In this document: piece after piece, positions 1 through 22,779 of the stretch
How positions within the stretch are numbered: the stretch's first letter is position 1
Layout of the letters: each line of letters starts with the position of its first letter
DNA from: Aquilaria yunnanensis
Lineage: Eukaryota; Streptophyta; Magnoliopsida; Malvales; Thymelaeaceae
Assembly (NCBI GenBank): GCA_039654915.1
Contig: CM077594.1
Location: 18,661,001 to 18,725,000 of the forward strand
Direction: 5' to 3'
DNA length: 64,000 nucleotides
Program-made: the position numbers and the translations under genes
Notes under the pieces: generated by a model
Databases searched by the model: none
Told to the model about the DNA's origin: nothing
The model's input: only the letters and a program-made list of their open reading frames with translations

Positions 1-2140
1 TAATTTTGAGGTTAAGGGTCCTACCTTAGAACCTCGACGATAGGAACTCTCCTATCGTTTGAAGTAAAATTGATTGTTTTGAGGTTAAGGTCCTACCTTA
101 GAACCTCGACGATAGGAACTCTTCTATCGTTTGAAGTAAAATTGATGATTTTGAGGTTAAGGGTCCTACCTTAGAATCTCGACGACAGGAACTCTCCTAT
201 CGTTTGAAGGAAAATTGTTTGAATGAGGTTAAGGGTCCTACCTTAGAACCTCGACGATAGGAACTCTCCTATCGTTTGAAGGAAAATTGATGATTTTGAG
301 GTTAAGGGCCCTACCTTAGAACTTCGACGATAGGAACTCTCCTATCGTTTGAAGAAAAATTGATTGTTTTGAGGTTAAGGGTCCTACCCTAGAACCTCGA
401 CGATAGGAACTCTCCTATCGTTTGAAGGAAAATTGATGATTTTGAGGTTAAGAGTCCTACCTTAGAACCTCGACGATAGGAACTCTCCTATCGTTTGAAG
501 GAAAATTGATGATTTTGAGGTTAAGGGTCCTACCTTAGAACCTCGACGACAGGAACTCTCCTATCGTTTGAAGGAAAATTGTTTGAATGAGGTTAAGGGT
601 CCCACCTTAGAACCTCGACGATAGGAACTCTCCTATCGTTTGAAGGAAAATTGATGATTTTGAGGTTAAGGGTCCTACCTTAGAACCTCGACGATAGGAA
701 CTCTCCTATCGTTTGAAGGAAAATTGATGATTTTGAGGTTAAGGGTCCTACCTTAGAACCTCGACGACAGGAACTCTCCTATCGTTTGAAGGAAAATTGT
801 TTGAATGAGGTTAAGGGTCCCACCTTAGAACCTCGACGATAGGAACTCTCCTATCGTTTGAAGGAAAATTGATGATTTTGAGGTTAAGGGTCCTACCTTA
901 GAACCTCGACGATAGGAACTCTTCTATCATTTGAAGGAAAATTGTTTGAATGAGGTTAAGGGTCCTACCTTAGAACCTCGACGATAGGAACTCTCCTATC
1001 GTTTGAAGGAAAATTGATGATTTTGAGGTTAAGGGCCCTACCTTAGAACCTCGACGATAGGAACTCTCCTATCGTTTGAAGGAAAATTGTTTGAATGAGG
1101 TTAAGGGTCCTACCTTAGAACCTCGACGATAGGAACTCTCCTATCGTTTGAAGGAAAATTGATGATTTTGAGGTTAAGGGCCCTACCTTAGAACCTCGAC
1201 GATAGGAACTCTCCTATCGTTTGAAGGAAAATTGATGATTTTGAGGTTAAGGGTCCTACCTTAGAACCTCGACAATAGGAACTCTCCTATCGTTTGAAGG
1301 AAAATTTATGATTTTGAGGTTAAGGGCCCTACCTTAGAACCTCGACGATAGGAACTCTCCTATCGTTTGAAGGAAAATTGTTTGAATGAGGTTAAGGGTC
1401 CCACCTTAGAACCTCGACGATAGGAACTCTCCTATCGTTTGAAGGAAAATTGATGATTTTGAGGTTAAGGGTCCTACCTTAGAACCTCGACGATAGGAAC
1501 TCTTCTATCATTTGAAGGAAAATTGTTTGAATGAGGTTAAGGGTCCTACCTTAGAACCTCGACGATAGGAACTCTCCTATCGTTTGAAGGAAAATTGATG
1601 ATTTTGAGGTTAAGGGCCCTACCTTAGAACCTCGACGATAGGAACTCTCCTATCGTTTGAAGGAAAATTGTTTGAATGAGGTTAAGGGTCCTACCTTAGA
1701 ACCTCGACGATAGGAACTCTCCTATCGTTTGAAGGAAAATTGATGATTTTGAGGTTAAGGGCCCTACCTTAGAACCTCGACGATAGGAACTCTCCTATCG
1801 TTTGAAGGAAAATTGATGATTTTGAGGTTAAGGGTCCTACCTTAGAACCTCGACGATAGGAACTCTCCTATCGCTTGAAGTAAAATTGATTGAATGAGGT
1901 TAAGGGTCCTACCTTAGAACCTCGACGATAGGAACTCTCCTATCGTTTGAAGGAAAATTGATGATTTTGAGGTTAAGGGCCCTACCTTAGAACCTCGACG
2001 ATAGGAACTCTCCTATCGTTTGAAGAAAAATTGATGATTTGAGGTTAAGGGCCCTTCCTTAGAACCTCGACGATAGGAACTCTCCTATCGTTTGAAGGAA
2101 AATTGATGGAATGAGGTTAAGGAAATCTCCTTGAACCTCG
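1..2140. repeat. 73-bp minisatellite array, about 29 copies, cut by window edge
   Basis: The unit of 72-73 bp begins GAGGTTAAGGGTCCTACC and repeats head to tail from base 1 until a last degenerate half unit near 2110-2140. Two versions mix: one ends in TTGATGATTTT, the other in TTGTTTGAAT. Each unit holds two inverted repeats: CGATAGGA-ACTC-TCCTATCG (8-bp perfect stem, 4-base loop) and GAGGTT-AAGG...CCTT-AG-AACCTC. Copies differ mostly by single bases. The array continues to the left of the window. Repeats of this kind are known from the region just before the 3' LTR of Ogre-type retrotransposons, which fits the element to its right, but that link is inference. Confidence 0.97.
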
Positions 2141-2658
2141 AGCGAAATTTATATGAAAGCAATTAGAATTGGAATAATCTTCTTCGAAAGTGTGAATTTG
2201 CATAATAGGCGAGTGCGAAATTTTAGACTTCGATAAAATGAGTGAATCTTGATGATGACAATATCGCTAACAAATTATGTAAAGGGAACGGATGTTTGGA
2301 ATCAATATCCAAGGTTCATCTAATATTTTCTTTAGTAAATATAGATTCGCTTGAGAGATATGTCATCCAAATAAGGTTGAAGCTTAACTATCCTAAAATG
2401 TTATGCCTAGTAGACCTAATAGGATGCGTCTCAAGAGCAATAAAAATTACTCTTTACTCAGCCATTCCAACCTAAAGTCATTGTCCTATGGTTTTAATAT
2501 CAGCATGGACGAGACTATCTTATAAGATAAAAAAAGAAATTCCCTGAAAGAAAAACTAAAACACGAAAGAAAATGCTGATAATAAAACTAAAGGACAAGC
2601 AAAACGGATCGGATCACTTCTTCTTCCACAATATTTCAACAGGGTTAGTAGAGGACTA
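2141..2658. other. spacer between minisatellite and LOG-like gene
   Basis: No convincing gene. A 77-codon open frame at 2242-2475 has no recognisable domain and looks like chance. The stretch probably includes the 3' untranslated region of the minus-strand LOG-like gene. Confidence 0.5.
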
Positions 2659-3288
2659 TTATGGGATCGAACTGTTCGGGAAAGACTGTCGCGTCCAGTC
2701 TATCTGAATCATTGCTGGATCTGGTTCAGGAACAAAAGCTTGTATTTTATCTAGCAATTCTTCAGCAGTTGTTGCGGATATTATGATTCGCCGTGCCACT
2801 CTTGATATAAAATTCTTCTGCATAGCATAATCCATAAAAGCTATCAGACCTGTAAAGAAATTGTTAACATTTAAAAGCCCAATGGGTTTCTTATGCAAAT
2901 TAAGTTGGGCCATGGAAGCAATTTGAAAGACTTCTCCCAATGTGCCAAAACCACCTGGTAGAGCGATAAAAGCATCAGCATTTAAAAGCATTTGTAACAC
3001 ACGCTCTTGTAAATTTTTAACCACTAATTCTTCTCCAATCGTGCCCCCAGAAATAAATTTCAGAGGTCCAGGGATAATGCCCAGAACTTGACTTCCTCCT
3101 AGAGATGCTGCTGATGCTACACCTCCCATTAATCCGACACTACCTCCTCCATAAACTAAATGTATTTTTCGCTCAGCTAATACTCTACCCAAATGGTTGG
3201 CTGCTTTTAAATACTCTTCATCTTTTCCTGGAAAAGCCCCAGAAAATACACAAATACTTCGGGATTTACGAGTTGGGGTTTTCTCCAT
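2659..3288 (-). CDS. LOG-type cytokinin riboside 5'-monophosphate phosphoribohydrolase, intronless
   Basis: LOG enzymes release active free-base cytokinin from its riboside monophosphate in one step, in cytosol and nucleus. The protein is a complete Rossmann-fold family member of 209 residues from the chosen start. It has YGGGSVGLMG (about residue 46) and PGGFGTLGE (about 111), which fits the family signature PGGxGTxxE. The Arg of the preceding helix (about residue 96) and the last Glu of the motif, the expected catalytic pair, are both kept. The family's usual CVFCG is CVFSG here, and the Lys after the catalytic Arg is Val, so this is a divergent copy. The start is the Met just before the conserved RSICVF segment; the frame is open 20 codons further upstream (to 3348). 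Plant LOG genes normally have several introns and this one has none, which suggests an RNA-derived copy. It lies on the same strand as the zinc-finger genes and the retrotransposon to its right. Confidence 0.85.
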   Translation of the reverse strand: MEKTPTRKSRSICVFSGAFPGKDEEYLKAANHLGRVLAERKIHLVYGGGSVGLMGGVASAASLGGSQVLGIIPGPLKFISGGTIGEELVVKNLQERVLQMLLNADAFIALPGGFGTLGEVFQIASMAQLNLHKKPIGLLNVNNFFTGLIAFMDYAMQKNFISRVARRIIISATTAEELLDKIQAFVPEPDPAMIQIDWTRQSFPNSSIP

Positions 3289-3389
3289 TCCTATCCTTAC
3301 CCTTGTGAGAAAAGAGGATATATTTATAGAGATGAAGAGATAAGGCAATAATTTTATTTTTCAAGAATGGATACATTATTGCCAGCTAT

Positions 3390-3830
3390 TCATAGTAGTC
3401 ACGGGTATGACTCTGGTCAGGTATGGGTACACTATCGTTAAAAGAGGAGGAAAATTTTCAAAATAGCTGCTAGCATGTACAGTAGTCGCGATTGTAGCTT
3501 ATGTCAGGAGTAGGTACATGATTGTCGGATGAGAAGGAAAATTTCAAAAGTGGCAGGTATATACAGTAGTCATAATTATAGCTCATGTCAGGAGTGGGTA
3601 CATTATGGGAGGAAAATTTCAAAAGCGTCAGCTAGCATGTACAGTATCGTGACTATGGCTTATGTCAAGAGTGGATACATTATTGCTGAAAGAGGAGGAA
3701 AATTTCAAAAGCGACAGCTAGCACGTACAGTAATCGTGACTTTGGTTCATGTCAGGAGTGGATACATTATTACCAAAAGGGGAGGAAAATTTCAAAAGCG
3801 ACAGCTAGCACGTACAGTAATCGTGACCTT
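3390..3830. repeat. about five degenerate tandem copies of an 80-90-bp unit
   Basis: A unit containing GAGGAAAATTTCAAAAG, then GCTAGCATGTACAGTA and GTCAGGAGTGGATACATTATT recurs about five times. Single related copies lie in the spacers downstream of the two other zinc-finger genes (near 4585-4660 and 5405-5490). The block is therefore a local expansion of the 3' flank of the duplicated gene unit. A 120-codon plus-strand frame across it is a by-product of the repeat. Confidence 0.85.
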
Positions 3831-3877
3831 GTTCCGTCTTCTACTGGCTTTGCGTCCAGTAACGGCTTCAATGCTTT

Positions 3878-4426
3878 CTATGAATCAGTGATTTGCATCT
3901 CATCTAGCTTTTTCACAAACTGGCAAACAGGGTCGTTTAGGGTCAGATTCCCAAGACTGTAACGTTCTCGTTCTTTTTGGAGAATTATCCATAATCCAAC
4001 AACCTCAAATTGCACTATTCCGCAAGAATGCGCTTCAAGAACCTCTCGGATATCTTCCAGAGATTCCTTACGCAAGCCATTCTTGATGAATTTTATTCTA
4101 TCATTACGATTTCTGGTGATCACTCCTGGAGAACGACATTTATTGCCGCAAATCCACCATCCACAATTGTGACAGACGCCTAGCCTCTTTGCTCTTCTCT
4201 TTTTGGCATAAACGCTTTTACCAAAGCCGGGCATACGGGGAAAGAACGCATCTGGAACTTCACCAGCCGAACGAACTTTAGCTTCGATTAGCCATCGCAC
4301 ATTATCAGGAATGCCTTTGTGCATAAATAGTCGGAATCGTTCACATCTAGCTTGATAAACCTTTTTAAGAACATTTATTGGGAAAGAAGGGAAATATTTT
4401 CGTAGAGCGGAAAGAGAAGGCTCCAT
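3878..4426 (-). CDS. Cys4 zinc-finger basic protein, copy 1 (flexivirus nucleic-acid-binding-protein-like)
   Basis: A 182-residue protein, intronless, with the same layout as its two neighbours. It has a helical N-terminal half (about residues 1-60), a basic box (YAKKRRAKRLG, about 74-84), a C-x2-C-x4-C-x3-C finger (Cys 85, 88, 93, 97) and a charged C-terminal half with the shared end motif LNDPVCQFV. The basic box could serve as nuclear localisation and RNA-binding signal. The order of basic box, finger and following Asn/basic segment recalls the cysteine-rich nucleic-acid-binding proteins of carla- and allexiviruses, though the spacing between Cys pairs is shorter here. The start is placed at the Met matching the other copies; an in-frame ATG five codons upstream (4441) would add MPHSS. 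Function is not established. An unrelated plant zinc-knuckle protein is the alternative. Confidence 0.7.
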   Translation of the reverse strand: MEPSLSALRKYFPSFPINVLKKVYQARCERFRLFMHKGIPDNVRWLIEAKVRSAGEVPDAFFPRMPGFGKSVYAKKRRAKRLGVCHNCGWWICGNKCRSPGVITRNRNDRIKFIKNGLRKESLEDIREVLEAHSCGIVQFEVVGLWIILQKERERYSLGNLTLNDPVCQFVKKLDEMQITDS

Positions 4427-4690: not shown

Positions 4691-5239
4691 CTATAAGTCG
4701 GGGATTTGCTTCCCATCTAGTTTTCTTACAAACTGACAAACGGGGTCGTTTAAAATCACATTCCCAAGACTGTAACGGTTTCGTTCTTTATGGTAAGTCC
4801 TCCATAAACCGATAATTTCACCTTGCACTTTTCCACAAGAATGCGTTTCAAGAGTCTCTCGGATATCTTTCAGAGACTCCTTACGCAGGCCATTCTTAAT
4901 GAATTTTCTTTTATCTTCACGATTTATGGAGATGTATCCTAAAGAGCGACATTTAGTATTACAATTCCATCGCCCACATTTATAACACACGCCTAGTCTC
5001 TTTGCTCTTCGCCTTTTGGCATAACGGCTTTTACCTAAACCGGGCATGCGGGGCATAAATGCATCTGGAACTTCACCCGCCAAACGGACCTTAGCTTCAA
5101 TTATCCACTGCACATTGTCGGGAATGCCTTTGCGTGTAAAAACTCTGATTCTTTCACATCTAGCAAGGTAGATCTTTTTAAGGACTTTTTGTGGGAGGGA
5201 AGGAAAGTATTTTCGCAGTACAGAAAGAGTAGAATCCAT
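4691..5239 (-). CDS. Cys4 zinc-finger basic protein, copy 2
   Basis: The 182-residue protein has no intron or frame break. The finger is Cys 85, 88, 93, 97 (CYKCGRWNCNTKC). The basic box SRYAKRRRAKRLG precedes it at about 71-83. After the finger comes a segment starting SLGYISINREDK and an amphipathic tail ending KLDGKQIPDL. Compared with copies 1 and 3, the finger Cys residues, the basic box, the IPDN/IPED turn (about 39-42) and the LNDPVC motif are unchanged while linker residues differ. That pattern suggests selection on the protein, although no substitution rates were computed. It has its own TATA box (5360-5367), so the copies are probably separate transcription units. Confidence 0.7.
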   Translation of the reverse strand: MDSTLSVLRKYFPSLPQKVLKKIYLARCERIRVFTRKGIPDNVQWIIEAKVRLAGEVPDAFMPRMPGLGKSRYAKRRRAKRLGVCYKCGRWNCNTKCRSLGYISINREDKRKFIKNGLRKESLKDIRETLETHSCGKVQGEIIGLWRTYHKERNRYSLGNVILNDPVCQFVRKLDGKQIPDL

Positions 5240-5528: not shown

Positions 5529-6077
5529 CTATGAGTCGAGGATCTGCTTCCCATCCAGCTTTCTTACAAACCGGCAAACAGGGTCGTTTAAAGTCAGATT
5601 CCCGGGACTGTAACGGTCTCGTTCTTCATGAAAAATACTCCATAAATCAAGAATTTCACGTTGCACAGATCCACAAGAATGCGTCTCAAGAGTCAATTGG
5701 ATATCATCCAATGAGTCCTTACTCAAGCCATTCTTGATGAACCGTATTTTATCTTCTCGATTATTGGAGATCATTCCTAAAGAACGACACCTAGTCTTAC
5801 AAGTCCACCTACCACATTTATGGCAGACTTGTAATCTTTTCGCTCTTCTTTTTCTGGCATAAGAACTTTTGCCAACACCAGGCATGTAAGACACAAATGC
5901 CTCTGGGATTTCACCTGCCAGACGAACCTTAGCTTCAATTAACCACCGCATATCTTCAGGGATTCCTTTATGCATCAGAGCTCTTAATCGTTCACAGCGA
6001 ACTTGGTAGATCTTTTTTAGGATGTTCATTGGGAGAGAAGGAAAATACTTTCGCAAGGCGGAAAAAGTAGGATCCAT
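5529..6077 (-). CDS. Cys4 zinc-finger basic protein, copy 3
   Basis: This 182-residue protein is the copy nearest the retrotransposon pol gene. It keeps the four finger Cys (CHKCGRWTCKTRC, about 85-97) and the basic box (SYARKRRAKRLQ, about 71-82). The finger is followed by SLGMISNNREDK. The N-terminal segment (MDPTFSALRKYFPSLP) matches the other copies closely. Upstream homology with copies 1 and 2 stops near 6184, before the place of their TATA box, so this copy must use a different promoter. No function can be assigned from sequence alone. Silencing suppression or transcription control, known for carlavirus relatives, is only a lead. Confidence 0.7.
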   Translation of the reverse strand: MDPTFSALRKYFPSLPMNILKKIYQVRCERLRALMHKGIPEDMRWLIEAKVRLAGEIPEAFVSYMPGVGKSSYARKRRAKRLQVCHKCGRWTCKTRCRSLGMISNNREDKIRFIKNGLSKDSLDDIQLTLETHSCGSVQREILDLWSIFHEERDRYSPGNLTLNDPVCRFVRKLDGKQILDS

Positions 6078-7443: not shown

Positions 7444-10400
7444 TTATGCAAAGTATTTCTTTACTGCATCCGAATTTACTGGCTTCGGTAATTCTCGTCC
7501 ATCCATTTCTGTCAGAATTAGTGCCCCTCCTGAAAATGCTTTCTTCACGACATATGGCCCGTCATAATTTGGTGTCCATTTTCCTCTTGAATCATGTTGC
7601 ATGGGTAAAATTTTCTTGAGCACTATGTCACCCTCGTGAAATTGTCGTGGGCGAACCTTTTTGTTGTAAGAACGAATCATCCTTCTTTGATAAAGTTGCC
7701 CATGGCAGAGGGCTATCATTCTTCTTTCATCAATTAGATTTAATTGCTCGTATCTAGCTTTGACCCATTCTGCTTCTCTTAATTGAGTATCCATTAGTAC
7801 CCTTAATGAAGGTATTTCAACTTCGATGGGCAATACAGCCTCCATACCGTATACCAGAGAAAAAGGTGTTGCTCCAGTAGAAGTACGGGTAGAAGTTCTA
7901 TAAGCATGTAGTGCAAAAGGTAACATCTCATGCCAGTCCTTGTAAGTGACGATCATCTTTTCAACAATTCTCTTGATATTTTTATTGGCCGCTTCTACTG
8001 CACCATTCATCATTGGTCGATAAGGTGCCGAATTGAGATGTTTGATTTTGAACTGCCGGCACAAAGTCTGCATCATTGCATTGTTCAGGTTCGTGGCATT
8101 GTCTGAGATGATACATTCCGGCGGCCCATAACGACAAATGATTTCTTTCTTAATGAACCGGCATACCACCTTTTGAGTCACACTTGCATATGACATAGCT
8201 TCTACCCATTTAGTGAAGTAGTCAATTGCCACTAGGATGAATTTGTGACCATTGGAAGCTTTAGGGGTAATGGCTCCAATGACGTCAATTCCCCACATGG
8301 CAAAAGGCCAAGGTATTGCTGTTACATTAAGAGGGGTGGGTGGAGCTTGGATCTTGTTGGCATATATTTGACATTTGTGACATTTTCTCACGTGATTAAT
8401 ACAATCACTTTCCAATGTGAGCCAATAGTAGCCAGCCCTCATTATTTGTCTTGCCATGGTATGACCACTAGTGTGTGCTCCACATATTCCAGAATGAACT
8501 TCTTCCATGATCTTTCGTGCTTCATGAGTATCTACACAGCGAAGTAGCATCGAGTCTGGGGTTTTCTTGTAGAGTATGTCTAGGTTTAAAAGAAAACCCA
8601 TTGACAATCTTCGTAGAAATTTCTTGTCATTTTCTGATGCTTCTAGTGGATATGTTCGTTCTTGGAGGTATTTCTTGATATCATGATACCAAGGCTTTCC
8701 ATCCAATTCTTCTTCGATGCTCATGCAATAAGCTGGAGAATCTATTATTTTCATCTCGAACACAGGAGTATGCTCAGGGTCGCTTATCTTGTACATAGCA
8801 GCCAAAGTAGCTAAAGCGTCTGGGATTTGATTATCTTCCCTTGGAAGATGATGGAAACTTATACTGTTAAATCTTCGACTCATGTCTAGTATAAGCTTTT
8901 GGTAAGGGATTAATTTTGAATCTCTTGTCTCCCATTCTCCATTGATTTGATATATGACTAATGCGGAATCCCCATAGACTCGGAGATCTCGCACTTTCAA
9001 ATCCAATGCCATTTGGAGTCCCATAGCACATGCTTCATACTCTACTATATTGTTGGTACAAGGAAATGTAATTTTTGCTGTGAGGGGAAACTGCTCTCCG
9101 CTTGGAGAGATGAGTATAGCTCCGATCCATTGTCCCAAAGCATTAGATGCTCCATCGAATGCCATTTTCCATGTTTCATTTTCTTCATCGACTTCCTGTT
9201 CTATAGTCATTATATCTCCATCAGGAAAGTCCATTCTCATGGGCTCGTAATCCTCCAATGCTCTATCAGCCAGATATTCAGCGATCACACTTCCTTTTAC
9301 GGCTTTTTGGGTGACATACTGTATGTCGTATTCAGATAACAGCATTTGCCATTTTGCAATCCTGCCTGATAAAGCGGGTTTCTCGAAAATGTACTTAATG
9401 GGGTCAGTCTTGGAGATCAGTAATGTTGTGTTGTTGAGCATGTAGTGTCGTAGTCGATGTGCTACCCATGCAAGGGCACAACAGGACTTTTCTACTATTG
9501 AGTATTTAGCTTCATATGTGGTAAGCTTTTTGCTCAAATAGTAAATTGCATGCTCCTTCTTGCTTGTCTCATCATGTTGACCCAATACGGATCCTAATGA
9601 AGAATCCTGTATGGATAAATATAGAATCAACGGTTCTCCGGATCGAGGTGGTATCAAGACTGGTGGATTTGATAAATATCGTTTGATTTTCTCGAACGCT
9701 TCTTGGCATTCGTTATTCCACTCAATCGGATTGTTCTTCTTTAGTGATTTGAAAAGCGGTTCACACTTGGACGTCAATTGTGATATGAACCTTGCTATGA
9801 AGTTGATTCTACCCAGAAAACTTCTTACTTGTTTTGGAGTCTTCGGGGGTTGCATTTCTTGTATCGCTTTGACTTTACTCGGGTCAACTCGAATCCCGTC
9901 CTTGCTGACTATGAAACCCAATAACTTTCCTGAAGAGGCTCCAAAAGTACATTTGGCAGGATTCAACTTCAATTGATATTTGCGAAGTCTATCGAATAGT
10001 TTTCTTAGCACTTTTAGATGCCCCCCAGCAGTGAAAGTTTTGGCGATCATGTCGTCCACATATACTTCAATTTCTTTATGAATCATGTCATGGAACAACG
10101 TGACCATGGCTCTTTGATATGTAGCACCAGTATTCTTTAACCCGAAAGGCATCACCTTATAGTAGAAGGTACCCCAAAGGGTAATAAAAGCAGTTTTTAT
10201 CATGTCATCTGGATCAAGTTTGATTTGATTGTATCCAGAAAAACCATCCATGAAGGAAAAGTAGGAGTTTCCTGCGGTATTATCCACCAGTGTATCAATA
10301 TGAGGAAGTGGGAAGTTATCTTTAGGACTGGCTTCGTTCAAAGGCCGGTAGTCCTGACAAACTCTTAGTTTCCCACTTTCTTTCTTTTCGACTGGGACAA

Positions 10401-10842
10401 TGTTAACCACCCATTCTGTATATTCAGCGACCCCAAGAAATCCTGCATCCCACAGCTTTCGAATCTCGTCTTTTACTCTTAAGATTAACTCCGGCTTTAA
10501 TCTTCGTAACTTCTGTCTGACAGGCTTCGCCCCAGGCTTCAAAGGTATTTTGTGTAGTACTATGTCTGAGCTTAAGCCAGGCATATCTTGGTATGACCAA
10601 GCGAATACATCCACATATTCTTTTAATAAATGGACTAATTCTTCTTTTTCTTCAGGAGGGAATAAAGTGCCAATCTTGACTTCTTTTACATCCTGACTGT
10701 CTCCCAGGTTGAATACCTCAGTTGGTTCTTGACTTGTTGCTCTTTCTTTTTCATCTCGCTCAATCATTTTTAATAGCTCAGGAGATACTTGAAGATCTTC
10801 GTCATCCGAGTCGGTAGTGTTTACAGGATTATCAAAGTTCAT
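7444..10842 (-). CDS. pol: Ogre-type pol: reverse transcriptase, two RNase H domains, integrase
   Basis: 1132 residues, uninterrupted. Reverse transcriptase is at about 120-310, with the first Asp in FMDG (199) and YVDD at 261-264. A gypsy-type RNase H follows (about 400-480, largely decayed in catalytic residues). A second, archaeal-type RNase H lies at about 558-690 (Asp 563 in FDGAS, Glu 603, Asp 625 in YGDS, Asp 675). Integrase has an HHCC finger (His 790, His 794, Cys 821, Cys 824) and the catalytic triad Asp 853, Asp 914, Glu 950 with the usual 35-residue gap between the last two. The annotated ATG may not be used for translation. The upstream intron puts this frame in line with gag-pro, so the natural product is probably a spliced gag-pro-pol polyprotein. 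Confidence 0.95.
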   Translation of the reverse strand: MNFDNPVNTTDSDDEDLQVSPELLKMIERDEKERATSQEPTEVFNLGDSQDVKEVKIGTLFPPEEKEELVHLLKEYVDVFAWSYQDMPGLSSDIVLHKIPLKPGAKPVRQKLRRLKPELILRVKDEIRKLWDAGFLGVAEYTEWVVNIVPVEKKESGKLRVCQDYRPLNEASPKDNFPLPHIDTLVDNTAGNSYFSFMDGFSGYNQIKLDPDDMIKTAFITLWGTFYYKVMPFGLKNTGATYQRAMVTLFHDMIHKEIEVYVDDMIAKTFTAGGHLKVLRKLFDRLRKYQLKLNPAKCTFGASSGKLLGFIVSKDGIRVDPSKVKAIQEMQPPKTPKQVRSFLGRINFIARFISQLTSKCEPLFKSLKKNNPIEWNNECQEAFEKIKRYLSNPPVLIPPRSGEPLILYLSIQDSSLGSVLGQHDETSKKEHAIYYLSKKLTTYEAKYSIVEKSCCALAWVAHRLRHYMLNNTTLLISKTDPIKYIFEKPALSGRIAKWQMLLSEYDIQYVTQKAVKGSVIAEYLADRALEDYEPMRMDFPDGDIMTIEQEVDEENETWKMAFDGASNALGQWIGAILISPSGEQFPLTAKITFPCTNNIVEYEACAMGLQMALDLKVRDLRVYGDSALVIYQINGEWETRDSKLIPYQKLILDMSRRFNSISFHHLPREDNQIPDALATLAAMYKISDPEHTPVFEMKIIDSPAYCMSIEEELDGKPWYHDIKKYLQERTYPLEASENDKKFLRRLSMGFLLNLDILYKKTPDSMLLRCVDTHEARKIMEEVHSGICGAHTSGHTMARQIMRAGYYWLTLESDCINHVRKCHKCQIYANKIQAPPTPLNVTAIPWPFAMWGIDVIGAITPKASNGHKFILVAIDYFTKWVEAMSYASVTQKVVCRFIKKEIICRYGPPECIISDNATNLNNAMMQTLCRQFKIKHLNSAPYRPMMNGAVEAANKNIKRIVEKMIVTYKDWHEMLPFALHAYRTSTRTSTGATPFSLVYGMEAVLPIEVEIPSLRVLMDTQLREAEWVKARYEQLNLIDERRMIALCHGQLYQRRMIRSYNKKVRPRQFHEGDIVLKKILPMQHDSRGKWTPNYDGPYVVKKAFSGGALILTEMDGRELPKPVNSDAVKKYFA

Positions 10843-14000: not shown

Positions 14001-14388
14001 AAGGGATTACGACGTCTGGCACTAAGCAGAGGTCATCCACTGAAAGGGATCCGAATATAGTGCCTCCTTCAATGGCTCTCAGTCTTTTCTCTATTGTCTC
14101 GATTTTTTGAGATTCTGCTTCATCTTTTGGTAATGTCTTCTTCTCTTCCTGTACAGTGTCTTGTTTCAGGTGAACACTAGCAGAGGGTCCTGATTCTTGA
14201 AACAGGTTTTCTTGGACTGAGACTCGTTGCGGGGTGAATCCCGGGGGATAAGTGGGATCTTGTACTTCTTTGATGGGGACTTGAGTTGCTTTCCCTTTGA
14301 TTAATTCCATCAATTGTTTCATCTGTTCTGACATACTTTCAATCTTGGACTCCATCTCCATGAGACGTCCTTCGGCTTGTTCTGCCAT
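11077..14388 (-). CDS. gag-pro: Ogre-type gag-protease with C-terminal G-patch
   Basis: 1103 residues. A short coiled coil at the N-terminus is followed by the retrotransposon gag capsid domain (about 130-290). Next is a Pro/Asn-rich repeat (341-378, NRPNxYPP units). Two variant zinc knuckles come next: CPYH...GHGLENC (about 439-453) and CNFHNSKSHSIQEC (539-552). The aspartic protease has its active site at Asp 796 in LIDNGS, with the DNG form in place of the usual DTG/DSG, and ends with LLGRPWI. A G-patch domain lies at about 950-995 (Gly-rich, GGYSPGLGLG), placed after the protease as in some retroviruses. The stop codon lies inside the donor site of the 207-nt intron, so unspliced RNA makes gag-pro only. 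Confidence 0.93.
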   Translation of the reverse strand: MAEQAEGRLMEMESKIESMSEQMKQLMELIKGKATQVPIKEVQDPTYPPGFTPQRVSVQENLFQESGPSASVHLKQDTVQEEKKTLPKDEAESQKIETIEKRLRAIEGGTIFGSLSVDDLCLVPDVVIPSDFKVPDFVKYDGTSDPITHITLFLRRLQPLTKDEKVWIALFQESLTKSALQWYLSQGPRNIKTWNDLAQAFIGNYKHVMDLAPDRQTLQNMEKKKTETFKEYAQRWRDLAAQVQPPMTEREMVTLFVQTLKYPYYDKLIGNAATNFSDVVMSGERIEHGIRTGKITESFSDPMKRGGPSRRKDEEIQQIGRGRGIPLVGTVATGPRLSYSANRPNYYPTNRPNDYPPNRPSDYLPNRPNNYPLNRPNQLRPPVPTPPMPAPRPREIFAPIPMTYTELYPKLIQSQLIHPIPTRPFEPPYPTWYDPKLNCPYHDGAVGHGLENCIALKRIVQQLIESKWLDFSDEPNVTHNPLPPHQAKPVNMMEEYWPMKKTVNDIITPFKHVYSCLVKEGIITGKSSGNKEVEHEEWCNFHNSKSHSIQECPEFRKSLQSLMDSSQIIVFMSDKEDDVNVIIKEQEVNIMPRPLVIPISKSALKPLRIQVPKPFPYKSDKTVPWNYGYTSNITSTPLEVGGMTRSGRCYSPEQMNKLQQEKNVTDPANGPINTSKEQEMPQAVTDEQATEFLKLIKQSEYSIVEQLNRLPAKISILSLLLSSDAHREALLKVLNKAYVEQDISVNNFDHLVNNITAQNLITFTDDEIPAEGRGHSKALHISIKYKDRIMARVLIDNGSALNVMPLETLHKIGLDPSHLNNSHIVVRAFDGTKRDVVGEIELPIGIGPCLFHITFQVMDISPSYTCLLGRPWIHMAGAIPSSLHQKMKFIIEGKIITVFAEEDILLSRPADAQYVEVNENIPDCSFRSFEIVNAAYVSEYGEEPVPNISKTSRMVAKLMIKGGYSPGLGLGQDLQGIPEPLKISANEGKYGLGFTPTRHDKMKAIAEKREKRIARLTGHPLQERNLDIPEITETFVSGGLIPKNDNEGKLTININKSFESLSIQAIISDSPEEEELIQPCGPRDVLNNWEAIELPVIIESFPK
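13255..13368 (-). repeat. 24-bp coding repeat in gag
   Basis: Five in-frame units encode variants of NRPN-D/N-YPP. The segment links capsid and zinc-knuckle parts and is probably a flexible, length-variable linker. Confidence 0.8.
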
Positions 14389-14581: not shown

Positions 14582-16276
14582 TCAAAAGAAACGGCCCAAA
14601 GTACAGTATTGCTTTCTGGCCTTTGAAATAAACTCCATCATTTTTTGAATATTCACCGATGGAGTAGGGCAGCTCAATTCTTCTAACTCCTTGGCTTCTT
14701 CGCCCATTAGTTGGGCTTGCTCAGTCACTTTTCTGACTTCTGCCAAAAATATTTGAAGCTGTTCTTGAGAAAATCTGTATTGATCTTCCCAATATCTTGC
14801 TCTCATCTCTGTTTGATCGGTTTCATCAACTAATTCGGTGATGACTTGTTTTTGGCTTTCGATCTTTTCTTCGAGGAGTTGTGTTTTGTGACTGAGCTGT
14901 TGTATGTCGAAGAGCATCTTTTTGTTCTTCTCCTTTTCTTCCTCTAGCTCTTTCTCCAACTCTCTTTTTGCCAATTTTCTGATGACCTCTTCGGGAAGAA
15001 CTATTCCTTCTTTCCGATTATTTCTCCATTCATAATACGCAGTAGGAGAAATAATAGGGCCTGACTTTAATATGAAAAGTCTTTTCCATGCAACTGAAAT
15101 ACCCATTGCAAGCTTATTTGAATTTGGATCTTCATGTGAAAACTCCAACTTGCTCAGGTTATGTGTCATGGGTATAAATTGCATGGACCCAAATTGTTTA
15201 CGTACTTGGGCTGGAGCATAGCTTGTTCCTCCCCATATGCCTAAGAGAGGAACCCACGGGCAATTGCCGCAACGGTAAACTATGCGGGTGGTGGTGGACC
15301 AGGGTGCTCTCCATTCAATTTGGAATTCGCTGATGTTCTTGAAGTAGTCAACCCATGCTTCCTTGCTATCATGATTAGTGGTTTCACTTTTCAAAAAGGC
15401 TTCGATTGGGATGAAGTCCTTTGAAAAGCGATTTCCAAAATGTTGCTTCTCACAAGGAAGGTGGCTTTTGATCCAAACGTTGAGGAGATGTGAACATCCT
15501 ATGAATTTGCCTCCTCTTTGGCGACAAAAGTTTAATGCCCTGATAGTTTCACATAATATCACTGAGGTCGGATTTACTTGGGCATTGCAGACTTGCTCAA
15601 ATAATGTGATGACGTCTCCTTCAATAAATCCGACAATTCTTGGGAAGACTACCAGGCCATATATTGCCAAGGCGAACAACTTACGTCGTTGATTCTTCTG
15701 AGGGAGGGTGTGACCTAGTTGTTTTAGATCGGTCCAGCTGATAAATTTCCGACACCCTTTTGTTGCAAATTTGGGTTGAAGACTGGAAGCTGGCATGTCC
15801 AATAATTTTGCTAGGGCTCGATGAGGCTCCGTTCTTCTATCATATTGATACGTCTCAATTGGATAGTTGGAGGACCAACCCAAGAGGTTATTGTATTCTT
15901 CAATGGTTGGAACCAGATCCATCTTATCGAAAGAAAAGCATCGATAAAATGGATCCCAAAATTGTGTTAGAGCCCGGACAAGTGATGCATCAACGGTAAC
16001 CTTTAGTAGGCAAGCGATGTGACCATATTTTGCCGTAAAAGCTTCCCGATCAGCAGAGTTCCAACTATTCCAGACTTGTAATAATTCCATGGTGTCATTA
16101 TGGTTTATCCGAACCGATACCTGGTCCTTAAGCTGTATGTGAGAGTGGGATGTCAGAGCATCTCCGTGAAGCTTTTGAGCTGTTTCGGAATATTCCATAG
16201 CTTCAGGCTGAGTTTCGATTACAGTGTCATTCCATGATGCAGTAACAGCCGTGGGAAGATAATCGAGAATATCCAT
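14582..16276 (-). CDS. Ogre ORF1: DUF7745-like domain plus coiled coil
   Basis: 564 residues, uninterrupted, located between the primer site and gag. The first 400 residues resemble the plant-specific DUF7745 / plant-mobile-domain type, with the core FTAKYGHIACLLKV (about 82) and the following FWDP...VPTIEEYNNLL. Residues about 430-545 are a long charged coiled coil (KRELEKELEEEKEKNKK and onwards). The function of Ogre ORF1 is unknown; a structural or chaperone role beside gag is only inferred from position. The family assignment is from memory of such proteins in other dicots, not from a search. The spacer to gag (14389-14581) has no feature. Confidence 0.8.
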   Translation of the reverse strand: MDILDYLPTAVTASWNDTVIETQPEAMEYSETAQKLHGDALTSHSHIQLKDQVSVRINHNDTMELLQVWNSWNSADREAFTAKYGHIACLLKVTVDASLVRALTQFWDPFYRCFSFDKMDLVPTIEEYNNLLGWSSNYPIETYQYDRRTEPHRALAKLLDMPASSLQPKFATKGCRKFISWTDLKQLGHTLPQKNQRRKLFALAIYGLVVFPRIVGFIEGDVITLFEQVCNAQVNPTSVILCETIRALNFCRQRGGKFIGCSHLLNVWIKSHLPCEKQHFGNRFSKDFIPIEAFLKSETTNHDSKEAWVDYFKNISEFQIEWRAPWSTTTRIVYRCGNCPWVPLLGIWGGTSYAPAQVRKQFGSMQFIPMTHNLSKLEFSHEDPNSNKLAMGISVAWKRLFILKSGPIISPTAYYEWRNNRKEGIVLPEEVIRKLAKRELEKELEEEKEKNKKMLFDIQQLSHKTQLLEEKIESQKQVITELVDETDQTEMRARYWEDQYRFSQEQLQIFLAEVRKVTEQAQLMGEEAKELEELSCPTPSVNIQKMMEFISKARKQYCTLGRFF

Positions 16277-16879: not shown

Positions 16880-16897
16880 TCCCCAGTGGAGTCGCCA
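16880..16897 (-). other. primer binding site, tRNA-Arg type
   Basis: Minus-strand TGGCGACTCCACTGGGGA lies three bases downstream of the 5' LTR end. It begins with TGG, matching a CCA tail, and its complement ends in GGAGTCGCCA as expected for a tRNA-Arg acceptor end, the primer known for Ogre elements. The exact tRNA was not checked. Confidence 0.85.
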
Positions 16898-17175
16898 AGC
16901 TGTGGCAACGTCGGGTTTTCGGGAGTCGCCACCAATCTGTTTCACCTAGGTCGATTGGACACCTTAAAATTGGTCTGCGAGAGTTCGGGGATCGGGAGTA
17001 CGGTTACGCTAAAACAACTTTGTTATAGCGCCCAAAATTGGCACCTTAGTTGATTTTAATTTTGTTTTGCTTTGCTTTTAGAAAATATTCAGTTAATTTT
17101 CAAACTAGAAATTTTAACTGAATTAATCGGATGCGGATTTTTAAATTAATTTATATAAAATTTGATACTTCCGAA

Positions 17176-17254
17176 CCATGGACTCTGCCGAGTCATTTGG
17201 ACACGGAAGATTTTGATTCCGAACCATGGACTCTGCCGAGTCATTTGGACACGG
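17176..17254 (-). other. two adjacent copies of a covarying two-stem hairpin in the LTR leader
   Basis: Copies at 17176-17206 and 17224-17254, 48 bp apart. In the RNA sense (minus) each reads CCGTG-TCCAAAT-GACTC-GGCA-GAGTC-CATGG: outer stem CCGTG/CATGG, inner stem GACTC/GAGTC, loop GGCA and a 7-base bulge. Two further copies at 17358-17388 and 18982-19012 preserve the fold with changed pairs. Confidence 0.8.
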
Positions 17255-17357
17255 AATTTGGTGAAATTTTAAACAATTTTATCCATATTGTATAAAAATA
17301 TGGATTTTTATCTTTTTATTTAATTTATTTATTTTAAAAAGTTTGATATTTTCCAAA

Positions 17358-17388
17358 CCGTAGATCCTGCCGGATCATCCGGATATGG
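17358..17388 (-). other. third copy of the covarying hairpin
   Basis: RNA-sense CCATA-TCCGGAT-GATCC-GGCA-GGATC-TACGG. Compared with the first copies, inner-stem pairs C-G/T-A became T-A/C-G on both sides and the last outer pair G-C became A-T. The central outer pair is an A-C mismatch. Confidence 0.75.
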
Positions 17389-17499
17389 AAATTGATTTAT
17401 CGTAATTATTTAATTCTTATTATTATGAAATTAATTTTTAAATGGTAATTCTTTTTGTTTATGAATGATTTTTAATACTAACTAAAAATTTATCTTTAT

Positions 17500-17865
17500 A
17501 TTTTTACTTCTTTTTTTTTCTTCTTTTTTACTTATTTTTACCCTTTTTTTTTCTTTTCTTTCTTTTTTATTCTTTTCTTTCTTTCTTTTCTTTTTCTTTT
17601 TCTTTCTTTTATCTTTCTTTTCTTTTTCTTATCTTTCCTTTCTTTTCTTTATCTTATCTTTCTTTTATTTTTCTTTCTTATCTTTCTTTTATTTTTCTTC
17701 TCTTTTCTTTCTTTCTTTTCTTTTTCTTATCTTTTTTTTTATTTTTTTTATCTTTCTTTTCTTTCTTATCTTTCTTTTATTTTTCTTTCTTATCTTTCTT
17801 TTATTTTTCTTATCTTTCTTTTTTTTTTCTTGTTTACTTTTTTTGTTTTCTTGTTTAATGAAAGA
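17500..17865. repeat. polypyrimidine tract (purine-rich in the element RNA)
   Basis: About 360 bp built of TTTC, TTTTC and TTATC units. In the minus-strand transcript it is an A/G-rich tract within R-U5. It is likely length-variable. Confidence 0.95.
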
Positions 17866-17983
17866 TATTTATTATTTTAAAGGATTACTCAATTTATAAA
17901 AGAATTAAAAAAATAATAATTAATTTTTATTTAATAAGAAGTTAATTTAAAAGAATTAAAGAGTTTAAAAATAAAAATTTTGA

Positions 17984-18079
17984 TCATGGTACGGGGCGTT
18001 GTTACTCAGCCAGACCCTCTTCACCAGGTGAAGCAGCTCAAAAGCGGGCACGAGACAGTTTCCAGCCAATATACCATGA
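17984..18079 (-). other. 96-nt element bounded by an 8-bp perfect inverted repeat
   Basis: TCATGGTA (17984-17991) pairs with TACCATGA (18072-18079). Inside lies a second near-palindrome, CTTCACC-A-GGTGAAG (18019-18033). The block is G/C-rich within surrounding A/T, which suggests a folded RNA module in the LTR leader. Confidence 0.6.
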
Positions 18080-18981
18080 ACTAAAAATTTTTTATTTTTT
18101 TTATTATTTTTTATTATTTTTTTATTATTTTTTTTTTTATAAAAGATTAACCAAAAGTAATTGTTTTATTAAGAGAATCAAAAATTTATATGTATATTTT
18201 AAACAAAAGAAGAAAAGTTTTGATATTTATTTAATTTATTTTGGAATAAAAGATTATTTAACCGAAAACTTATATGTATTTTAAAACAAAAGTCTTGATA
18301 TTTTTATTTTTTATATTCTTCTTTGTTTGATGAAATATTTTTTTTTAATTTTAATTTATATTTCTGAAAATATATCTAATCAATAAGTCAAAAATATTTA
18401 AGAGAAAATTCAATTATTTTTGTTTTATTTTGTATTATTTTGAAATTATTTGATTAAGATTTTTATAAAGGAAAACAAAAAAGTTATATCTTTTAATAAG
18501 TAAAATATTACTGAATAAAATATTAACCCAAAATTTTTATTCTTTTCATTCTTTTTATTAATAAAGAAAACTAAAAAAAATTATATTTTAAAAGAAATAT
18601 ATAAAATATTATTGAAAAATATTAACTCAAAATTTACTCTTTTTATTCTTTTTATTAATAAAGAAAACTAAAAAAAGCTATATTTTAAAAGAAATAAATA
18701 AAATATTACTGAAAAATATTAACCCAAAATTTACTCTTTTTATTCTTTTTAATAAAGAAAACTAAAAAAAGTTATATTTTATTATTTTAAAAGAAATAAA
18801 TAAAATATTACTGAAAAATATTAACCCAAAAATTTTACGCTTTTTATTCTTTTTATTAATAAAGAAAACTAAAAAAAAAATTATATATTAATAGATAATT
18901 AATATATTAGTCTAAAGTTTTTTTTTATTTTTTTATAAAGAAAAAATTTATTTATATATTTTATTTAAAAATATTTCCGAG

Positions 18982-19012
18982 CCATGGATCCTGGCGGATC
19001 ATTTGGTCATGG
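18982..19012 (-). other. fourth copy of the covarying hairpin
   Basis: RNA-sense CCATG-ACCAAAT-GATCC-GCCA-GGATC-CATGG. Both stems pair perfectly. The outer G-U of the first copies is an A-U here. It lies about 1.6 kb from the other copies. Confidence 0.8.
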
Positions 19013-19839
19013 AGTTTTAAATTTTTTTTATATTTCATTAATTATTAATTTTAAAGATGTATTAAAAGAATGATTTTATGTTTATTTATTTATTTATTTT
19101 ATTTTTTGAATTATTTCATTATGTTTGTTTATTAAAAGGAATAAAAACTTTGTTTCAAAATTAAAAAAAAGTAATTTTTATTAGCCTTTAGAAAATTATT
19201 CACATAAAATTCCTTTTTTTATCTTTTAATCATAAAAAAAAAATTCAATTAATAAAGTGGGGCTTTTTGGCCATCCACTTTAATAACACAATAATAATAA
19301 AAGTTAGCACAATTAATATAGTTAGATTAGTTGGATTAGTTAGTTAATAACAATAAAAAAGGTTAGTAAAAAGTTAGATTAAATTAATTAACAACAATAA
19401 TAAAAATTAGCCAAGTTTAATTAAATTAATTGTTAACAACAATAATAAAAAGTTAGTCAAGTTAATTAAATTAATTAATTAACAACAATAATAAAATTTA
19501 GCCAAATTAATTAATTGTTAATTAACCAAGTTGATTAAATTAATTAACAATAATAAAAGTTAGTAATAATGCAAAAATTAAAAGGTTAGTAACAATAATA
19601 ATGTTAAAAGTTAGTTGTTAGTAAGTTAGTTAACAAGTTAATAATAACAAAAAAAAAAAAAAAGGTTAGTAACAATAACAATAATAAACAAATAAATACA
19701 CAAGTAAAAAAATAAAGTTAGTAATTAATTCTGAAAAAAAAAACAAAATAAAAAGATTAGTGACCAAAATGAAAAGAATTGAAAAGATGAAGGACTGAAA
19801 GGAGGTTTTACCCTTGGGAAATGAATTTGAAATTCTGTT

Positions 19840-20116
19840 TTGCTGGGAAAACAGAAAACGCGACGAAGCGCAGCTGGCACGGCAGGGAGGCGAGCACGGG
19901 CGTGGGGCGGCGAGGCGTGGGCGGAGGGGCGACGGCGGCGTGGGCGGAGGGGCGACGGCGGCGTGGGCGGAGGGCGGCGGAGGAGCCGCAGGCAGCAGCC
20001 GGCGGAGGGAGAGAAGAAACGCGGCGGAAGGAAAACGGAAAGGAGAAAAAGACGGCGGCGGGACGGCGTGGGAGCAAACGGCGACCGGCGACGGCGTCGG
20101 CAGCGGGACAGCGTGA
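19840..20116. repeat. GC-rich island with 23-bp direct repeats inside the AT-rich LTR
   Basis: A roughly 280-bp CpG-rich block contains about three 23-bp repeats (GCGTGGGCGGAGGGGCGACG plus three bases, from 19915, 19938 and 19961). It lies roughly 200-470 bp downstream of the LTR TATA box. The overlapping open frames on both strands are caused by its composition and are not taken as genes. Confidence 0.85.
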
Positions 20117-20339
20117 CGGCAGAAGGAGAAAGAGAGAGAAAATGAGAGGAGAGAGAGAGAGAACAACGAAGGAGATTAAACGAAAGAGATGGTCAAATCG
20201 TAGAAAAATAAAATTTTGAGACTTTCTGGCAGAAGGAGGAGAGGCTAGGGAATAAGGCTGTAATTTTCTCTATTTTTAAAACGGAGCTCTGAACTTTTTT
20301 CTCTGATTTTCTGTGTGTTCAGCACTGAATTTGGGGGGG

Positions 20340-20348
20340 TATTTATAG
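20340..20348 (-). promoter_or_regulatory. TATA box of the Ogre-like LTR
   Basis: Minus-strand CTATAAATA followed by a C-run and a pyrimidine/A-rich start region, with transcription expected near 20305-20315. It is the only strong TATA in the U3 side of the LTR. Confidence 0.7.
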
Positions 20349-22779
20349 AAGGAGCTTAGCTGAACTGTGGACGGATAAATTAATAAAAAATATCAAGCTT
20401 ATCTTTTAAATTGGTAAAATGACAGTTTCAGTCCTTTACGTTACTCCAGCTCTGGATAAGCTCAGAAGCTTCTGATTTTGACAATTTTAACGTTTTCTGT
20501 CAATTTGGGCTAGAAACGTCCGTTTAGGCCCAAAATTGACGCGAAAAATTACCCAAAGCTCCTGAAACTTTCAGAATTTGTCAATTTTATCCGAAACTTC
20601 TCAATTTTGTCATTTTTACCTCAAACTTTTAATTTTTTTGTCATTTTTTTCTGAAATTTTATTTTTATTCCAAACACATACATATTCACACATATATTAT
20701 TTTAAATGAAATCTTCTCAAAATAAAAATATATTTTAAACTAATTAACATAATTAAAATTTTTTAGCAATAATAATAATAATAATAATAATTTTTTTAAT
20801 TAGTTTTTTTTTTTTTTAATTTTTTTTTTTTTTTTTTTTTAAAAAAGGCCGGACGAAATTGGGTGTCAACAATGTCCATGATGTTGGTGTTTGGAGTCAT
20901 ATTCTTGTTGTTTGTAATCATTTTCGTTTGTTGTTGTGTTTGTGTTTTGGTGATGTTTGTGGTTCATGTCTATGATTGTGATCGTGCATTCATAATGGCA
21001 CTTTTTGTGTTGTTGTTCGTAGTGTTTATGTTCATGGTAAAGAATATGAGCCAAGGTGGAGATTTTTTTCTTTGTGAGCTCAAATTCAAGAAACTTAAGA
21101 ATTTTGATTTTGTTTAGGGTTTAGTTTTAGTTTTCCTATTTTGTTTAAGGTTTATGTGTAACCTATAAAAAGACATGTTGTGATATGGTTTTGAATGTGT
21201 TAGAAAACCAATATGATGAAGAGACAAGATGTGAGAATTTTCAAAAGATAGATAGGTATGAAATTGGTAACTAGTAGAATCAGAAGTCTTTCTATGATCA
21301 TCATATATTGTAATTGTGTGAGAGCAAGAATCTATAGGTTAATGTAATCACCAATAAGGCGTACTTCTATTGTAATCTCTATAATTTGTTTGAGTGAATT
21401 TCTCTCATCTATAGATGTAAGCTAATTAAGAGCCAAATCATATTAAATTTATATATGCTTGTTTGATCATATTCCTATTGCACGCAATGGGTGATTGAGA
21501 ATTTTTTTGTCCAACAGCCACAAATTCTGTTCTATTTTCATTCTTTTTTCTTTTTAAAAATTGCCAAAACTATTATTTTTTTGATAAAACGGGAAAACAA
21601 AATGAAAATTAGAACCTCTTTGAGCTGCAATATATTTCTTTTATCATTTTATTTGCATAAACAATTTTTTCATAAAATCAGTTATATATTAAATCTTAGA
21701 GATATGAAAAATTATAAATAAAATTTTGTAGAACCCCCCTCCTTAATCCTTAGAAAACTATGAAGGTTGTGGTTGTGATATTGTCTCTTTTTGTGTCACC
21801 AACAATTACGTACAAGCATTGAATGAAGATGTTGTAAATAATAGTATTAAACTAATCTCGTGATGGGGAATGGAGGTGGGCCACCAAGTGTACATACACC
21901 TTACAATTTTCATTTATTAACCAGAGTTCAAATTAGAAAAGGAAGCATGAAGATTGAGGCTAGATTTTAGGACTTACTTGATTATAGACCATTTCTATAC
22001 AAACTCTTCCACAATCTTTCCCATATCTCTAATACATTAAAACCATGATCAAAAGTACACTTCTTACTCAGATTCTATGATCACCACTGCTTTTTTTTTT
22101 CCCTTTTCCCTAAATGATGATCAACATCATATTTTTATCCATTCCCTCATCTAAGAAGGACAATTGGTGCTAATTCTGACCCTAAAACCCAAAAATCCAT
22201 CACATTCATCAAATACAGTGATTTGGTGTGAAGAGGATTTGCAAACTCAACAATGGTGATTCCGAAAAGGAAGAAACTCAATTCAGAGGAAAAAGAAAAC
22301 AATTTAAAGGTTAAGTTCATGAGAAAAACATACATTGATTATATTTTTATTGTGAAATAACATAGGTTTGTGAAAAACTTGTTTGAAATTTGAGATTTAT
22401 GTTCCAAATTGAAGCTTTATATGTTTGATTAGGATTTCTTAGCGTATTTATGCTTCTCAATTTTATATGTATTTTTTGGGTTTGTAAAGACCACATATAT
22501 GTATATGTATATGCTTTTGGATTTTATATGCATACATATGTATATATGTTTCTAGGTTTACAAAAAACACAGATATACATGTATGCTTCTAGATTGTTTA
22601 TATATATATGATATTATTGATCATGCTAACCTTGGTATGGAAGTTATGCATGAACATAATGCTTATAACTTCCCCCTTGACCTAGCTGCTATTAAAGCTC
22701 CATCTACAAATGAATAAAACTTTTGTCTTAGTATATATGATTTTTTGAAAGGAAAAACATAAAGGGGAAATAACTTATG

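Follow-up and report, generated by a model that had tools for sequence, protein, structure and literature searches.

Plant long terminal repeat (LTR) retrotransposons of the Ogre type, as described in the sources consulted, encode gag-pro and a polyprotein of reverse transcriptase, RNase H and integrase (RT-RH-INT) as two open reading frames (ORFs) with an intron between them, possess an additional RNase H between RH and INT that is also common to Retand, and carry an extra ORF 5' of gag that often specifies a plant mobile domain (PMC6317226), in elements of 16-25 kb with LTRs of 1.9-6.5 kb (PMC6431247). Some plant LTR retrotransposons also carry genes foreign to the gag-pol repertoire, and a YgdH (LOG) domain has been reported from elements of Citrus and Populus (PMC9289625, citing Steinbauerova 2011). 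Here we describe an Ogre-type Ty3/gypsy element of Aquilaria yunnanensis that is complete and was inserted recently, recognised in a stretch of 64,000 bp (C2:18661001-18725000 of an 842-Mb assembly with eight contigs of 87-120 Mb; hereafter the window). The element carries a fixed module, in sense orientation, of three genes for Cys4 proteins (C4_3, C4_2 and C4_1) followed by an intron-less LOG gene, and the same module is found in gag-pol elements and in smaller LTR elements that have no pol.

An initial annotation of the window had placed ORF1, gag-pro, pol, three Cys4 ORFs and LOG on the minus strand beside a single LTR, and had proposed that the Cys4 and LOG genes are cargo of the retrotransposon, the 3' LTR of which was expected to the left of base 1. 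The observation itself, with respect to genes, strand and layout, is confirmed, as all of these frames are open on the minus strand where they had been placed; for LOG the open frame stands, while its start moves from the listed TTG at 3348 to a natural ATG at 3288. A search for LTR matches (E 1e-10) gave no second LTR in the window and nothing at 6185-7443, the interval where an LTR remnant would have told against cargo. The predicted LTR came to light in the 10 kb left of base 1, adjoining a 73-bp tandem array and flanked by ATGTC, an outcome named beforehand as a test. The element spans 25,014 bp from LTR to LTR, is bounded by the 5-bp target site duplication (TSD) ATGTC, and has the Cys4 and LOG genes between pol and the 3' LTR.

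The internal organisation is that of an Ogre element. Pol domains follow one another as RT_RNaseH (residues 403-505), RVT_3 (573-680) and H2C2/rve (770-943), placing an additional RNase H between RH and INT. Gag-pro and pol lie 234 bp apart, and a predicted 207-bp GT-AG intron would restore the frame between the two ORFs; it is one of 25 frame-restoring GT-AG pairs, picked for its pyrimidine tract and position. ORF1 sits 5' of gag, with a strong DUF7745 match and a plant mobile domain match that stays below the curated cut-off (E 2e-7, 31 bits as against 34.9), and the size of the element, with LTRs of 3,970 and 3,971 bp, agrees with that published for Ogre.

The same arrangement recurs throughout the genome. 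Protein searches with C4_3 and LOG, evaluated for the best-scoring 150 rows each and biased to intact young copies, gave at least 150 stop-free copies of C4_3 that are 98-100% identical and at least 150 stop-free copies of LOG that are all 100% identical. A loose first pass had marked 8,323 candidate places for C4_3 and 3,690 for LOG, the best 150 of each being scored, and copy numbers in the thousands are possible. A second Cys4 group, found with the Cys4 protein of another plant (P0003) as query, gave at least 150 rows, 142 of them stop-free. For 23 of the first 50 C4_3 matches, a lower bound, a LOG match is listed on the same strand 2,725-2,733 bp downstream, and chance is excluded because the module repeats in this way. 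The order C4_3-C4_2-C4_1-LOG was seen in nine copies (the window's own, c1, c5, c6, c8, c3, c4, f2 and L041), and C4_3 with C4_2 in L004, L006 and L007, of which L004 and L006 have a LOG match at the typical spacing. That host LOG and Cys4 genes happen to neighbour a truncated retrotransposon, a reading that the lack of a 3' LTR in the window alone would favour, therefore deserves practically no credence: the 3' LTR and TSD, together with the ordered module in nine copies, rule out chance adjacency of host genes.

Eight elements were read end to end, in a sample chosen by high cargo identity with the exception of f2. Five of them, the window's own and those on contigs C6, C8, C3 and C4, possess ORF1, gag-pro and pol, and three (c1 on C1, c5 on C5, and f2 at C2:18596841-18614324) are without this set. 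The four further full copies, of the kind anticipated by the initial annotation, hold the LOG and Cys4 genes between pol and 3' LTR in the same gene order, with coding regions 98-100% identical; the copy on C4 has a one-base gap in gag-pro, and the other full copies were judged by gap-free alignment alone. Perfect 5-bp TSDs flank all eight elements, and within each LTR pair there are 0-5 substitutions (K 0-0.0013) and 0-49 gap columns. At the often used plant rate of 1.3e-8 substitutions per site and year, a generic rate not calibrated for this plant, the insertions would be 0 to about 50,000 years old. Because the module recurs across chromosomes, and in eight complete copies with TSDs of their own, these genes do not form a fixed host locus; their interpretation as cargo is supported, and the finding is stronger than the initial annotation had proposed. 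A separate observation concerns the LTRs, which between full copies are 70-96% identical in longer blocks, with gaps (16901-20871 of the window against L027-L038), in comparison with 98-100% for coding regions, even as the LTR pair within each copy agrees; this unexplained contrast might reflect either LTR turnover or LTR swapping.

Elements lacking pol had not been foreseen by the initial annotation. No ORF1 or pol was found by tblastn (E 0.01) in c1, c5 or f2, all read completely. The position of the primer-binding site is constant in the eight complete copies, with or without pol, and the LTR outer ends, primer-binding site and polypurine tract of the three pol-less elements are as in full elements, the exceptions being single-base differences (at the primer-binding site in c4 and c5, at one LTR end in c5). 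Since these termini and priming sites are retained, together with 5-bp TSDs, the pol-less elements could be mobilised in trans by autonomous relatives. In c1 and c5, gag consists of pieces in three frames with four stops, and all four cargo genes are open; f2 has a gag remnant that is open but internally deleted, and its cargo is intact and clearly diverged from that of the window. When 12 distinct copies were checked, from the complete elements, 3.5-kb loci around C4_3 and one 5.5-kb locus, pol was present in seven and absent from five (c1, c5, f2, L007 and L041). The calls for L004 and L006 were made from the last 131 bp of pol only, and those for L007 and L041 from the 1.5 and 2.2 kb that precede C4_3, pol in the others ending about 1.4 kb before that gene. 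Upstream of C4_3, c1 and c5 are 79-90% identical to the window in longer blocks, and their Cys4 genes are 99.3-99.8% identical; this difference suggests that LTR backbones have exchanged the module.

By pairwise Nei-Gojobori counting, a method blind to whether selection acted during the pol-less phase, the ratio of non-synonymous to synonymous change (dN/dS) between the window and f2 is 0.15 for C4_3, 0.29 for C4_2, 0.15 for C4_1 and 0.07 for LOG, and it is 0.24-0.29 between the three Cys4 paralogues of the window. LOG of c5 differs from that of f2, both of them pol-less, by 31 synonymous and 3 non-synonymous changes (dN/dS 0.026), and from that of the window by 34 and 4 (0.031); the Cys4 genes of L041 give 0.17-0.38 against f2 and the window, and most remaining copies are too similar for such an estimate. 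These ratios support the view that the cargo proteins evolved under purifying selection. It is improbable, in our estimation, that the cargo is instead a passenger, captured long ago and intact because all copies stem from a few recent master elements. Such a history would account for the scarcity of differences between the two LTRs of each of the eight complete copies and for the near-identity of cargo in most sampled copies, themselves mostly chosen for high identity, but silent changes lie far above replacements wherever divergence exists, the broken gag of c1 and c5 stands beside intact cargo in the same elements, and several eudicot genera have Cys4 relatives about 182 aa long (among the relatives listed).

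All three Cys4 proteins exceed the curated cut-offs of the flexivirus profiles Viral_NABP (PF05515) and Carla_C4 (PF01623), in keeping with their initial description as virus-like, and in an alignment of 62 members that includes them, 60 match PF05515 and 59 match PF01623 (E 0.01). A protein search with C4_2 returned 146 relatives, the best 120 of which include proteins of Xanthoceras, Acer, Rhamnella and Orobanche. The alignment displays a KRRAKRL-type basic stretch and then C-x2-C-x4-C-x3-C, and viral cysteine-rich proteins are likewise described as having a basic nuclear-signal-like stretch and zinc-finger cysteines (PMC12172455), a likeness judged on the basic stretch and the presence of the cysteines. 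The viral proteins are reported to suppress RNA silencing, and p12 of chrysanthemum virus B to be additionally a hyperplasia-inducing transcription factor (PMC12172455). A structure model of C4_2 was obtained with a mean predicted local distance difference test (pLDDT) score of 74.5 and a predicted template modelling (pTM) score of 0.50. Compared by Foldseek with predicted viral structures (BFVD), the model gave 48 viral hits, individually weak (best E 3.3e-3); the best 26 comprise 21 proteins from named flexiviruses, several placed there by what we take to be their family membership, one citrus tristeza virus p23 and four nameless entries. Most of the flexivirus proteins bear names that refer to nucleic-acid binding, RNA binding or suppression of silencing. 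By profile, the three proteins of the element thus belong with the nucleic-acid-binding and silencing-suppressor proteins of flexiviruses, and the fold search points weakly in the same direction. An unlikely alternative, which nonetheless has points to commend it, is that the Cys4 proteins serve the retrotransposition cycle itself, in RNA packaging, as chaperones or in nuclear import of element RNA, with LOG selected separately. The basic stretch beside the Cys4 motif, the three diverged paralogues per element and their retention in elements that need packaging would suit such a role; it leaves the presence of LOG in the same module unexplained, however, and the fold neighbours are viral, many being named silencing suppressors or nucleic-acid-binding proteins.

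The LOG protein passes TIGR00730 (149 bits, cut-off 96), and its closest solved structure is At2g37210 (2A33). In a tree that includes two host LOGs, the window's protein and 30 relatives form a clade (support 0.95) apart from two Arabidopsis and two bacterial proteins. The Glu of the PGGxGTxxE motif, which is the residue read as Ala in 5ZBK, and a conserved Arg are present in all 35 aligned sequences, the window's included; these we assume to be the catalytic residues. In 30 of the 35, I, M, L or V stands in place of the Lys next to the Arg. Judged by its sequence, LOG is a putative cytokinin-activating phosphoribohydrolase. An LxLxL C-terminus, mostly behind a basic stretch, ends 99 of 110 LOG relatives of 205-235 aa (P0124-P0240; among 120 listed), as against 1.3 expected by shuffling; the window's LOG is without it. 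LxLxL is an EAR-type motif, and the tail may represent a TOPLESS-binding motif on a hormone enzyme. LOG relatives occur in many copies per genome, for example in Reevesia (among those listed), and because of this and the published YgdH domains of Citrus and Populus elements, the evidence points to the LOG relatives of other eudicots being retrotransposon genes as well.

Other plants also offer hints of linkage. A fused gene model of Rhamnella (P0082) has a weak match to the integrase end of the window's pol before its Cys4 part (E 1e-4, in a single comparison), and one of Orobanche (P0112) a short, non-significant protease resemblance (E 0.31); as signs that Cys4 genes are linked to retrotransposons, these are not strong. 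Rhamnella P0094 has, by precomputed domains, a Cys4 part and then LOG, of which the domain scan made here recovers LOG alone, and equal-sized contigs (8,723, 4,511, 2,425 and 2,128) in the Cys4 and LOG relative lists suggest, by size match only, that Cys4 and LOG genes are linked there.

How an element would profit from such a module can be framed in terms of host manipulation. Cys4 proteins would be binders of RNA or DNA that dampen RNA silencing, or alternatively act on host transcription, like a carlavirus cysteine-rich protein, and LOG would release active cytokinin from its nucleotide, driving cells to division; dividing cells would favour element expression and entry into cells that form the germline. 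With the kit retained, elements could then persist without gag-pol, as autonomous relatives would supply the enzymes and the kit would act in the transcribing cell. The explanation that we lean towards, and hold to be somewhat probable as a whole, joins an Ogre-type element, purifying selection on its cargo and a module that functions as a host-manipulation kit.

Several results weigh against this explanation. LOG falls far under the NCBIfam equivalog cut-off NF058542 (98.3 as against 300 bits) and departs from the enzymes of known structure in a V that takes the place of the Lys next to the Arg, and in a G where PGGxGTLEE has its first Glu. No fold hit reached E <= 1e-3 in the viral structure search, a PDB fold search with the C4_2 model gave nothing useful, and two scans of viral contigs, with a single protein and with the alignment, found no Cys4 relative, so that the viral link rests on Pfam and BFVD. 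TGA stops are carried by 8 of the 150 listed rows of the second Cys4 group, and L041, the only old pol-less copy examined, has 1, 2 and 2 stops in C4_3, C4_2 and C4_1. For c1 and c5, recombination may recently have brought back the module or its greater part (LOG of c5 is 94% identical), with no selection holding it while pol was absent; module exchange thus weakens the selection argument for these two elements and not for f2.

The beneficiary could in principle be the host, the module being kept by host selection for flexivirus resistance or growth. Virus-type genes in many genomic copies could be decoys or sources of small interfering RNA, and a host benefit has been proposed for the viral helicases of insect retrotransposons (PMC6338049). 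Yet the copies are dispersed, the eight dated ones are young and one functional gene would suffice, and we regard a host benefit as very improbable. A bolder version of the host-manipulation account, to which we give only tentative weight, would make an 'infection kit' the real unit of selection: three virus-type suppressors or regulators and a cytokinin-activating enzyme would render transcribing cells dividing and silencing-poor, the kit would swap LTR backbones and so give rise to cargo-only retrotransposons dependent on autonomous kin, and the LOGs of other eudicots, with their nuclear-signal-like stretch and LxLxL tail, would couple cytokinin activation to transcriptional repression.

Coordinates of the element's parts are collected in Table 1. 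The open frame of C4_1 begins at 4441, and its length of 182 aa is counted from the ATG that aligns with the other paralogues. An 87-bp array is present at full length, 99.2-99.5% identical, in the six other copies compared, and the spacer from LOG to the 3' LTR holds a tandem array in all eight copies; its unit measures 73 bp or a multiple of this, 86 bp or 47 bp, and is repeated up to about 40 times. Tandem arrays before the 3' LTR, as here, were reportedly noted in Ogre elements by Macas and Neumann in 2007, and this hypervariable region could act as a seed of satellites. The TATAAA positions give only a hint of expression signals, the sequence around them being itself conserved; C4_3 has no TATAAA within 330 bp upstream and has instead a pyrimidine-rich stretch with a TAG end directly before its ATG. 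A 23-bp GC-rich perfect tandem repeat lies at 19914-19974 within the AT-rich LTR. Elsewhere in the window, a 985-aa open frame (30975-33932, minus strand) is a SCAR3-like host gene exon, its best named relatives being from Malvaceae at about 37-49% identity and one unnamed protein reaching 61%, and a 143-aa open frame (50843-51274, minus strand) resembles, by eye, the integrase C-terminus of another gypsy element.

Table 1. Parts of the element, in window positions unless a C2 coordinate is given.
Feature	Position	Strand	Description
5' LTR	16901..20871	-	3,971 bp; LTR pair 99.9% identical
3' LTR	C2:18656858-18660827 (outside window)		3,970 bp; 3 substitutions and 2 gap columns relative to 5' LTR
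TSD ATGTC, 5' side	20872..20876	.	twin at C2:18656853-18656857
Primer-binding site TGGCGACTCCACTGGGG	16881..16897	-	3 nt inside 5' LTR
ORF1	14582..16276	-	564 aa, DUF7745 / plant mobile domain-like; DUF7745 E 7.9e-55
gag-pro ORF with G-patch	11077..14388	-	1,103 aa; Retrotrans_gag E 5.3e-12, G-patch 9.5e-8
Predicted 207-bp intron	10874..11080	-	GTAATC...polypyrimidine tract...ATGCAG; joins gag-pro and pol in frame
pol ORF	7444..10842	-	RT, RNase H, second RNase H, integrase; Pfam order RVT_1, RT_RNaseH, RVT_3, H2C2, rve
C4_3	5529..6077	-	182-aa Cys4, flexivirus nucleic-acid-binding type; PF05515 and PF01623 above curated cut-offs
TATAAA	5361..5366	-	127 bp 5' of C4_2 ATG; equal distance in own, c5 and f2 copies
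C4_2	4691..5239	-	second Cys4 paralogue, 182 aa; PF05515 E 2.5e-7
TATAAA	4536..4541	-	115 bp 5' of C4_1 ATG (66 bp in f2); present in own, c5 and f2 copies
C4_1	3878..4426	-	third Cys4 paralogue; PF05515 E 7e-6
87-bp tandem array	3441..3827	.	between LOG and C4_1
TATAAA	3324..3329	-	about 40 bp 5' of LOG ATG; equal position in own, c5 and f2 copies
LOG	2659..3288	-	cytokinin riboside 5'-monophosphate phosphoribohydrolase-like, 209 aa, one open frame; PF03641 E 1.6e-30
73-bp array	1..2122, leftward to about C2:18660952	.	between LOG and 3' LTR

The additional ORFs of plant retrotransposons have mostly unknown roles, and here the genes are recognisable, near-identical in many copies and can be assayed singly. 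Working as their relatives do, they would act on RNA silencing and on cytokinin; if so, plant retrotransposons manipulate hormones and silencing in the fashion of viruses, and cargo can sustain an element without pol. The module is relevant, too, to the exchange of genes between RNA viruses and retrotransposons, and it advises caution in annotation, as some single-exon plant LOG genes may be retrotransposon genes.

The novelty that the initial annotation had claimed holds in part: LOG-type domains inside LTR retrotransposons were already published for Citrus and Populus, and no report of virus-type Cys4 genes, of the joint module or of cargo-only elements was found in the openly accessible literature. 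The Citrus and Populus elements share the LOG-type domain, which the consulted portion of that account gives as a domain hit, without Cys4 genes, selection or pol-less carriers (PMC9289625). Orchid elements sister to Ogre are similar in being 25 kb long, Ogre-related and equipped with an extra gene, for an AlkB RNA demethylase active in vitro, that possibly counters host RNA control; they differ in having a single enzyme, close to the RNA demethylases of plants and humans and confined to Phalaenopsis in that screen, and gag-pol in one ORF, LOG or Cys4 genes not being reported in the part consulted (PMC9289625). In Retand elements with TRP28 ORFs, the region between pol and the 3' LTR likewise holds an additional ORF and, for roughly half of them, tandem arrays; 10 of 63 clusters keep TRP28 without at least one gag-pol domain, but the ORF is antisense and encodes another protein, and no cluster listed there is without all of gag, protease, RNase H and integrase (PMC11963269). 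Insect retrotransposons with viral superfamily 1 RNA helicases resemble the Aquilaria element in having an RNA-virus gene with weak silencing-suppressor activity, and differ in the helicase domain, the insect hosts and, as far as the consulted text goes, the lack of any mention of a hormone gene (PMC6338049). With the cysteine-rich and nucleic-acid-binding proteins of Alpha- and Betaflexiviridae, the Cys4 proteins have in common the basic stretch and Cys4 motif, PF05515/PF01623 and the fold neighbours; unlike these viral proteins, of 62 to 225 aa among the fold hits, they are about 182 aa long, come as three paralogues and are encoded by a retrotransposon. The Ogre subclade of Tat Ty3/gypsy (Neumann 2019, PMC6317226) shares with the element its size, its long LTRs, an ORF1 ahead of gag, the second RNase H and intron-split ORFs; the element stands apart through its four cargo genes, in sense orientation between pol and 3' LTR, and through its pol-less, cargo-keeping relatives.

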